Positions 1 through 39,044 of a stretch of 39,044 nucleotides of DNA are shown here, piece by piece. This stretch comes from Candidatus Neomarinimicrobiota bacterium (GTDB lineage: Bacteria > Fidelibacterota > Fidelibacteria > Fidelibacterales > Fidelibacteraceae), in NCBI GenBank assembly GCA_021157965.1, contig JAGGVO010000055.1, forward strand, positions 1 to 39,044, written 5' to 3'. How positions within the stretch are numbered: the first letter of the stretch is position 1; every line of letters begins with the position of its first letter. The position numbers and the translations under genes were made by a program. The notes beneath the pieces are model-generated. The model saw only the letters and a program-made list of their open reading frames with translations, did not search any database and was not told the origin of the DNA.

Positions 1-30
1 ACCGAAGCCCGGGGCTATACCACGCCCTCT

Positions 31-133
31 AAACGCCTGAACACCTAAACGTCTAAACGTCTAAACGCCTAAACGTCTAAACGTCTAAACGTCTAAACGT
101 CTGAACGCCTAAACGTCTGAACGTCTAAACGTA
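31..133. repeat. Tandem octamer array (unit AAACGTCT, about 13 copies)
   Basis: Thirteen consecutive 8-base units read AAACGTCT or one- to three-base variants (GAACGCCT, AAACGCCT, GAACACCT) with no phase slip; the last copy is incomplete. The array ends about a dozen bases before the -35-like hexamer of the TetR promoter. It has no coding potential. It resembles the heptamer tracts found in other intergenic spaces of this window but has an 8-base period. Confidence 0.93.
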
Positions 134-144
134 AAAAATTCCTA

Positions 145-34077: not shown

Positions 34078-34530
34078 ATGAAACTATGCGAGGTATGTGG
34101 TAATCCTATTCCGGATCATTATCACCGGTGTCCTTATTGTGAGTGTATCCAATCCGGAAATTCGCGGGCCCGAAGCAGGGAAATAATCCGTACGATCAAT
34201 CTTGAAGAGGGTATGCCGACCGTGGAGGAGTCCCTGATCAAGCTGGAACGGGAGCTGAATTATGCCATCAGTGCCGGTGTCTGCCTGGCCCGAATCATTC
34301 ACGGATATGGTTCGTCCGGGGTTGGCGGGGATATCCGAAATGCCTGTCACCGGTATCTCCGGGAAGCTTACCAGAAAGGGAGAATCAGGGGCTTCATTCC
34401 CGGTGAATTATTGAGAATTTCCACAAAGCAGGGACATATCCTCCTAACCCGGTATCCGGAACTGAAAAACGACGAGAAAAACCGCGGGATCACCATCATT
34501 GAATTATCACACAGCAAAGGGATTACATGA
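34078..34530 (+). CDS. Zinc-ribbon plus Smr-domain protein
   Basis: A 150-residue protein. An N-terminal zinc ribbon (Cys4, Cys7, Cys18, Cys21) leads to an Smr domain (about 39-115). The core reads RIIHGYGSSGVGGDI, the conserved HGxG loop of the MutS2-C-terminal/Smr nicking or RNA-binding fold. The ribosome site is weak. Its stop overlaps the CPBP gene by ATGA. Stand-alone Smr proteins in bacteria act in DNA processing or in rescue of collided ribosomes; the zinc ribbon suggests nucleic-acid or ribosome contact. The precise role is unknown. Confidence 0.85.
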   Translation: MKLCEVCGNPIPDHYHRCPYCECIQSGNSRARSREIIRTINLEEGMPTVEESLIKLERELNYAISAGVCLARIIHGYGSSGVGGDIRNACHRYLREAYQKGRIRGFIPGELLRISTKQGHILLTRYPELKNDEKNRGITIIELSHSKGIT

Positions 34531-35348
34531 CAAATAGTCACTGCAATTCGAAACAAACCCTGATCTCTTTTTTTATCATCACCTTCCTCTTTTCATGGTC
34601 CTTCTGGCTGATTGCCGTCCTGGCATCTTTTGGTTTTTTCGCACTTCCTGTTAATAAAATCATTCTCGTGGGGATCGGTGCCCACGGGCCTCTGGTCTCT
34701 GCCTTATGGCTGACCGGGAGAAAAGACGGGTGGACCGGCATAAAAAGACTCCTCCGCTCCGGTTTTAATCTTCGCCTGTCCCTGTATCACTGGTTACTGA
34801 TCCTCCTTCTGCCAGTAGTTCTGGCCGGACTTTCTGTTCGGTTAAACATGATGCTGTCCTCGTTTCGTCCTGATGTAACCCTTTTAAACAGCCCGCTTAC
34901 TATTCTTCCGGTTTTTCTCTTTATGTTTTTCCTCGGAGGCTCCGTCCAGGAAGAATTCGGCTGGCGGGGATTTGCCCTCCCCCGGCTTCTGAAAAAATGG
35001 AGCCCGATATGGGCAGGTTTGATTCTGGGACTAATATGGGGAATCTGGCATTTTCCCCTGTTTTATATTTCCACCCTGAGCCAGTCATACATGAATTTTG
35101 GACTTTTCATCATACTGACCTTGTGTTTCAGTCTTCTCATAACTCATTTTTATCTTCAGTCAAATAAGAACTTATTTACAGCCTTGCTGTTCCATACGGC
35201 GGTGAATACATCCTTATCCCTCTTCCCGCCCATCGAACAAAATTCCGGCGGAAACCAGCAGGCTTTCACGTTCATGACACTTTTTTACATATTTGTCACG
35301 GCTGTTGTTATCCTAAAAGAACGAAAAACTCTTTTCCAATCAAGCTAA
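34527..35348 (+). CDS. CPBP-family intramembrane glutamic endopeptidase
   Basis: A 273-residue multi-pass membrane protein of the CAAX-protease/bacteriocin-processing (CPBP) group. Active-site motifs are intact: EEFGWRGF (Glu142, Glu143, Arg147), WGIWHFP (His175) and LLFHTAVN (His223). About eight transmembrane helices surround them. Roles in the family include prenyl-protein cleavage and peptide immunity; the substrate is unknown. It is translationally coupled to the Smr gene. Bases 35123-35222, which carry His223, recur almost exactly at 38816-38915. Confidence 0.92.
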   Translation: MTNSHCNSKQTLISFFIITFLFSWSFWLIAVLASFGFFALPVNKIILVGIGAHGPLVSALWLTGRKDGWTGIKRLLRSGFNLRLSLYHWLLILLLPVVLAGLSVRLNMMLSSFRPDVTLLNSPLTILPVFLFMFFLGGSVQEEFGWRGFALPRLLKKWSPIWAGLILGLIWGIWHFPLFYISTLSQSYMNFGLFIILTLCFSLLITHFYLQSNKNLFTALLFHTAVNTSLSLFPPIEQNSGGNQQAFTFMTLFYIFVTAVVILKERKTLFQSS

Positions 35349-35866
35349 AAAGTATGATGAAAAACCATGTACCGAAGGAAGATACACGGGTAAAATATGA
35401 CTTTAGCGAAAAAAATACTATTTGCAGCTCTTATTTACTGAGTGAATTGTTTGAATTTCTTTTGAGGATTCTATTTTACCAGGATCATTTTATGTTTATC
35501 AATCACTTTCCCGTCTGCTTTCAGGATGTACGTATACACACCCGAGGCAAGGGATTCTCCGCTAAAGCGCACCGTATGGATTCCCGGTCGCGGACCGGGG
35601 TGGATATCTGATTCCCCGGTGTGTTATAACACCGTTAATTCCACAAAAGCCTGATGAAACAGGGTGTACTTAATCGTCGTCGAGGCATTGAAAGGATTGG
35701 GATAATTCCGGGAAAGAGTGAACTGCTCCGGATATGTGTCGGGATCCAGACTGTTACCGGTACCGACATAAATTACAGCTCACAATAAATCAGGATAATA
35801 TCTGAATAACAACTGAATGCCCTGCGAACAGTTTTTTTAGCCGTTGAAACAATTATTATTTTCGTG
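35349..35866. other. Intergenic region holding a decayed secretion-tail remnant
   Basis: This 518-base region lies between the CPBP gene (+) and the second histidine kinase (-). It contains the pseudogene at 35471-35779. The rest (35354-35470 and 35780-35866) is AT-rich and shows no gene; the apparent 85-residue plus-strand frame at 35354-35611 overlaps the remnant and looks random. Confidence 0.75.
35471..35779 (-). pseudogene. Remnant of a type IX-secreted protein: C-terminal FlgD-like tail only
   Basis: Translation of the minus strand gives YPEQFTLSRNYPNPFNASTT and IKYTLFHQAFVELTV, then an in-frame TAA at 35624-35626. The expected next motif, YNTPGNQISTPVRDRE, is in the +1 frame. The original frame returns near 35585 with PGIHTVRFSGESLASGVYTY and ends DKHKMILVK plus stop at 35471. 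Two compensating one-base indels therefore break the tail. Upstream only about 17 residues remain before a stop, so the whole functional body of the protein is lost. Confidence 0.85.
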
Positions 35867-38110: not shown

Positions 38111-38782
38111 CTTCCTCCTCGCTATGTACCTCAGCCATTTCAAATTGTCAAACAATGTTGGAAGAGGGTTAAAGTTTGTGGAGACTTACCGGCAGGCCTT
38201 ATATTTTTTAGATGCTTTCTCCATAATTTATACAATTTTTAAACATCGTTAGGGACAGAGCCCGGAAACAAGAATAATTTTCTTACGTCTATCTCTCGTT
38301 CATTGCCTATCATTTTGTAAGTCATCTTTTATTCTTTACATGCTTCCTATACGTTGTGTAAAATAGAAAAAAACTGAATTATTAAAAGCTCTATGCAAAA
38401 AGAATGAAAATTCTTGTCGTAATGCTTCCGTCTCCATTCTATTTTTTTCCGGACAGGCTTTGTTGCGACATTTTCGGTCACAACACAGAGCATTGTGGTC
38501 AGATTTTGCAAAATAAGATACATTGTTTATATCGATTCCCAATCTTCATTTTATTTATTCCTGAATCCAACCGTTAAGCATCACTTTCTTCTGACTCTCG
38601 TTTCCTGCCTCCTTTTATCACTTCACTCAACCCGACAAATACGCAACTCGTGATTTGTGAATCCGGCTTAAGTCAAGTGATATTATAACCTTCCAGAAAA
38701 AGGCTCTCATTTTTCTAATTAACTATATATTGATAGTTTATTTTGATAAATGCAAGAGGGAATATATTATCACTTTTTGGGT

Positions 38783-38811
38783 GGTAGAGTAATTTTTTTT
38801 AAGTAAAAAGG
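38783..38811. repeat. 29-bp unit, copy A (GGTAGAGTAATTTT...GTAAAAAGG)
   Basis: It matches 38920-38948 at 25 of 29 positions. Both begin GGTAG[A/T]GTAATTTT and end GTAAAAAGG. It directly precedes a second GGTAGTGT that is interrupted by the CPBP fragment. Confidence 0.75.
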
Positions 38812-38815
38812 GGTA

Positions 38816-38915
38816 GTGTTTCAGTCTTCTCATAACTCATTTTTATCTTCAGTCAAATAAGAACTTATTTACTGCCTTGCTGTTCCATACGGCGGTGAAT
38901 ACATCCTTATCCCTC
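38816..38915 (+). repeat. 100-bp copy of part of the CPBP protease gene
   Basis: Bases 38816-38915 equal 35123-35222 at 99 of 100 positions with no gaps. The one change (A35180 to T38873) is synonymous in the parent reading frame (Thr). The copy includes the codon for active-site His223 but no start or full domain. GGTAGTGT lies at both edges (38812-38819 and 38920-38927). Confidence 0.95.
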
Positions 38916-38919
38916 ATCC

Positions 38920-38948
38920 GGTAGTGTAATTTTCTTTCTGTAAAAAGG
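38920..38948. repeat. 29-bp unit, copy B (GGTAGTGTAATTTT...GTAAAAAGG)
   Basis: Second copy of the 29-base unit. It starts at the right-hand GGTAGTGT and runs into CTCAAAG. It could be one end of an insertion sequence whose body lies past 39044; the window does not show enough to tell. Confidence 0.7.
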
Positions 38949-39044
38949 CTCAAAGTTTTTCAAATTCAGGTAAAGAACAAATGAAAAACAATGAGCCTGG
39001 AAAAAAGTGATTAAAGAGCTAATGAAACTATTAATTGAATACGG

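Follow-up and report, generated by a model that had tools for sequence, protein, structure and literature searches.

How did a piece of a protease gene come to lie a second time in the same bacterial chromosome, between two copies of the octamer GGTAGTGT? The locus is situated near the right-hand end of contig C55, whose full 39,044 bp are referred to here as the window, in a draft genome of 2.3 Mb (61 contigs, 96% complete). The preliminary description had proposed that a 100-base gene fragment was inserted into a tandem pair of 29-base units, either with an 8-base target duplication or by microhomology-driven template switching. The features on which the analysis relies are the following.

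34527–35348: CPBP/Rce1-like gene, 273 aa, intact (PF02517, E 1.1e-13)
35123–35226, + strand: parent stretch in the CPBP/Rce1-like protease gene, 104-nt direct repeat
38783–38811, + strand: unit 1, degenerate IS left terminal repeat, 25/29 to the left terminal inverted repeat (IRL), found at no other site of the genome
38812–38819, + strand: first GGTAGTGT copy, identical to the outermost 8 bp of the IS left end, its last 4 bases (GTGT) common to the parent gene
38816–38919, + strand: copied gene fragment, 102/104, of which 38820–38919 is the part outside the IS octamer
38873, + strand: difference 1, T in the copy against A in both the parent (35180) and G004, the copy having the derived state
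38916, + strand: difference 2, A in the copy against T in both the parent (35223) and G004, at 4 nt from the right junction
38920–39044, + strand: left end of an IS256-family element, truncated where the contig stops, 88% match to the full-length 1299-bp copy in G004
38920–38948, + strand: IRL with subterminal TGTAAA (motif according to PMC7780238)

The copied fragment and its parent gene

The stretch 38816–38919 matches 35123–35226 at 102 of 104 bases, forming a direct repeat in the same orientation with 3.7 kb between the copies. In the whole-genome search, this match is far above chance (E 4.8e-46). The gene-fragment copy that had been reported 3.7 kb from the CPBP gene is therefore real, but its register was off by four bases: 35123–35222 pairs with 38816–38915, at 99/100 identity, and not with 38820–38919. 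Similarly, the earlier statement that the sole difference is synonymous holds within the first 100 bases, where A to T at 38873 (ACA to ACT) is silent in the parent frame, but the full 104 bases carry a second change, T to A at 38916 (TTC to ATC), which replaces F by I in that frame.

The direction and relative age of the copying can be read from G004, a genome from the same genus assembled as one contig, whose ortholog is 87% identical to the CPBP gene over its length. At all nine sites distinguishing the two genes, the copy carries the base of its own genome. The two copy–parent differences fall at positions at which the parent, which has been retained intact, agrees with G004, so that these changes are derived in the copy. 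Together, these observations place the copying in the lineage of this genome after its split from G004, which supports the earlier view that a coding fragment was copied recently. Promoter/terminator and ORF scans of 38150–39044 revealed nothing persuasive, and the fragment most likely neither encodes a product nor has a function. Directly after the CPBP gene, the minus strand of 35349–35860 resembles the broken coding end of a C-terminal sorting domain, with a 78% match in another genome (G005, contig C257).

The neighbouring IS256-family element

The DNA to the right of the fragment is the end of an insertion sequence (IS), which went unrecognised in the preliminary description. The complete element, of which two copies could be read in G004, measures 1,299 bp and encodes one 411-aa ORF, a Mutator-type transposase (Transposase_mut, PF00872, E 1.3e-109), between imperfect ends (IRL GGTAGTGTAATTTTCTTTCTGTAAAAAGG, IRR GATTAAGCAACGTTTTTTCTGTAAAAAGG) with a subterminal TGTAAA. 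Members of the IS256 family, as described for ISCth4, possess a subterminal TGTAAA with variation confined to the outer ~14 bases, duplicate 8 bp of their target and insert in A/T-rich targets (PMC7780238). Judged from its sequence, the element at 38920–39044 belongs to this copy-out/paste-in family, with which it shares the Mutator transposase and ~30-bp imperfect ends that contain TGTAAA and vary mostly in the first 14 bp. The element does not include the copied fragment. In contrast to the family pattern, no 8-bp target duplication was seen at the genus copies with both ends visible. The window contains only the first 125 bases of the element, in which the beginning of the transposase gene is damaged by small deletions and a premature stop; the coding part is more decayed, while the first 50 bases match other copies. 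No complete transposase of this IS was found in the draft genome.

When the genome was searched with the locus, six additional places were found, all of which match the right flank only. Regarding the 29-base pair, the positions 38783–38811 and 38920–38948 and their agreement at 25 of 29 bases stand (best of 1,000 shuffles, 20/29). They do not, however, form a free-standing tandem repeat: the right unit is the IS terminal inverted repeat and the left one a degenerate version of it. Even when up to three mismatches are allowed, unit 1 has a single site in the genome, and no similar remnant was detected upstream of the 19 other IS ends examined.

An 8-bp target duplication was not found at the ten genus copies with both ends visible, many of them old or rearranged, and the window copy shows one end only. 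These ten copies are L070 and L071 in G004, L075 and L076 in G003, and L044, L049, L052, L055, L058 and L061 in G002. The two G004 copies are 99.3% identical and still lack the duplication. One of the G004 copies borders a multi-kilobase block that is duplicated near the other (L102, 10029–13671; L103, 8876–12518), consistent with an IS-linked segmental duplication. In the draft genome itself, 'solo' left ends of ~54–99 bp, truncated at different points and with no adjacent right end seen, occur at L015 (C39), L014 (C32), L012 (C6) and L016 (C59). Furthermore, two internally deleted derivatives, L009 (C9, 1503–1971) and L010 (C27, 1–154), have the same deletion joint (~316/931 of the element), which suggests a mobilised non-autonomous form of the IS.

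Junctions of the fragment

The two GGTAGTGT octamers had been placed correctly, at 38812–38819 and 38920–38927. Since the IS itself begins with GGTAGTGT, the octamer is not a plain chromosomal target duplication. At the left junction, the flank and the parent share a 4-nt microhomology, GTGT, confirming an earlier remark and accounting for four of the eight octamer bases; as both already have GTGT, GGTA is all that the left octamer requires in addition to the copied DNA. At the right junction, which coincides exactly with the IS terminus, there is 0 nt of microhomology, with a mismatch 4 nt inside. The fragment has neither inverted repeats at its ends nor other transposon ends. The apparent target duplication is better read as the IS terminus copied twice, and the proposed insertion with an 8-base target duplication is poorly supported, because the octamer belongs to the adjacent IS end and the parent already supplies half of it.

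The length of the duplication equals that of the target duplication of the IS256 family (PMC7780238), and a transposase-made 8-bp stagger is therefore the main mechanistic alternative at this site. Here, the transposase would have cut the IS terminus with an 8-bp stagger, a loose gene fragment would have been joined in, and gap filling would have duplicated GGTAGTGT; the position of the right junction exactly at the IS terminus fits as well. We nevertheless consider this capture quite unlikely, as the fragment lacks terminal repeats and the presence of half of the octamer in the parent would be a 1/256 coincidence. Moreover, other IS ends, in the same genome and in G003 and G004, adjoin no short near-identical duplicated fragment, ten genus copies with both ends visible lack an 8-bp duplication, and GGTAGTGT is not A/T-rich, unlike the targets of the family in PMC7780238.

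The exact abutment of the fragment on the IS terminus is also what would be expected of IS flanking DNA. It is conceivable that the IS formerly resided in the CPBP gene after 35226, and that its left end together with 104 bp of flank was moved by one-ended transposition or IS–IS recombination. However, the CPBP gene is free of the IS both here and in G004, only chance would place the left boundary at GTGT with GGTA preceding it, and the IS fragment is a decayed copy. Such a carry-over is accordingly improbable.

A further alternative is an assembly or library artefact, a chimeric molecule near the contig end. Amplification chimeras likewise use short homologies, and the copy is situated 125 bp from the end of C55, which breaks inside the repeated IS; several other contigs (C12, C9, C52, C22 and C27) break in the same IS. 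Against such an artefact, two junctions would be required in one molecule. Copy and parent differ by two bases, which excludes a simple re-use of parent reads, and their longest exact common stretch is 57 nt, so that longer k-mers separate them. We therefore regard an artefact as unlikely.

Search for further copies and for the empty site

In a background sample of 436 kb (four contigs including the window, about one fifth of the genome), no dispersed copy apart from the fragment reaches both 50 nt and 95% identity; the one remaining match belongs to a local tandem repeat within the window. No other copies of the fragment were found in the same genome, the genus, 60 relatives, phages or plasmids, and the junction pattern did not occur in viral contigs. 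The search for other such inserts, which the preliminary description had called for, thus yielded none beyond 38816–38919 in this genome and 60 relatives, and no second complete CPBP gene was found in this genome or the relatives searched. The empty site could not be found in relatives either: the left flank (38600–38783) matched none of them, and the intergenic and kinase region preceding the site is not shared at synteny. Since no relative preserves the flank, the empty site is deduced and not seen.

The flanks of six other IS-end sites in this genome contain no near-identical fragment adjoining the IS but only diverged repeats, the best being 45 nt at 93%, located 75 bp away from the C52 end. 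In G003 and G004, no captured fragments were found at IS ends except for the one long duplicated block in G004. A general capture of short chromosomal fragments by IS256-family ends, in which transposase nicking followed by template switching would seed gene fragments genome-wide, is very improbable.

With respect to the machinery encoded in the draft genome, no Ku gene was detected, which makes Ku-type end joining less likely; a ComEC gene is present, and a reverse-transcriptase fragment lies at the end of contig C26. None of the three decides the mechanism. The reverse-transcriptase fragment and the coding nature of the copied stretch would be compatible with a copy made from RNA. However, the junctions bear no tail or other retro-signature and the DNA-level microhomology already explains the entry, leaving this route extremely improbable.

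Other repeats were observed as well. Arrays of 8-bp tandem units (CTAAACGT / CTCAACGT) are short in the window (21–140) and long in contig C27 (L010). An exact 49-nt direct repeat (GCCTGCCCCGTGAAATGAGCG...) is present at 1713–1761 and 1903–1951 of the window, 190 bp apart, and a similar motif upstream of the IS in contig C9 may point to a dispersed palindromic repeat.

Proposed mechanism and relation to known events

Combined, these data favour a one-off templated insertion at the left end of the IS, produced in the course of replication or repair by a template switch or by illegitimate capture, to which we assign a probability of roughly 0.6. Among the two earlier proposals, microhomology-driven template switching is the better one, given GTGT on the left, the lack of terminal inverted repeats and the lack of a second insert. 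Replication or repair would have been under way at the left end of the resident IS256-family element, and a DNA end that had copied GGTAGTGT would have paired via GTGT with the CPBP gene 3.7 kb away. Approximately 100 nt would then have been copied before a return to the start of the IS end, so that the eight outermost IS bases would stand on both sides of the fragment. The capture of a short single-stranded fragment of the CPBP gene by illegitimate joining would be an equivalent route. A switch via GTGT with subsequent return explains the whole sequence apart from one or two point changes, while the exit junction without microhomology argues against a templated insertion. The structure, the identity of the IS, the 4-nt entry microhomology, the singleness of the event and the polarity and relative age of the copy follow from the sequences themselves. 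The enzymology is inferred, and IS activity, in the form of nicking at the end, may have been the trigger.

Microhomology-mediated template switching, which gives rise to templated insertions and filler DNA, is best described in eukaryotes. The present locus resembles it in the nearby template, the same orientation, the short entry microhomology, the mismatch near a junction and the intact source, but differs in its exit without microhomology. Short-patch templated insertion in bacteria has reportedly been the subject of 'short-patch' work in Acinetobacter baylyi. Double illegitimate recombination has been described in the same species (Hulter and Wackernagel 2008, as referred to in PMC8116780). 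In natural transformation, such recombination depends on single-stranded DNA taken up by the cell. As in that process, a short segment of other origin is bounded by two illegitimate junctions, at least one of which uses a few matching bases. In contrast, here ~100 nt were added and not substituted, the site is an IS end, and the event is a natural relic in a draft genome.

The fragment insertion beside the IS256-family end is a genuine-looking, recent and single event of a known kind, and the copying most likely represents a rare but ordinary DNA-copying error. If the right flank of the IS began with CCTCATCC, the IS would have inserted after the fragment was already in place. The copy leaves the picture of any gene, system or mechanism unchanged. 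It is nevertheless a clear case from nature in which a bacterial chromosome has copied a short piece of its own coding DNA and in which the polarity and the two junctions can be read, and it shows how the ends of an IS can mimic a target-site duplication flanking an insert that has nothing to do with the IS.
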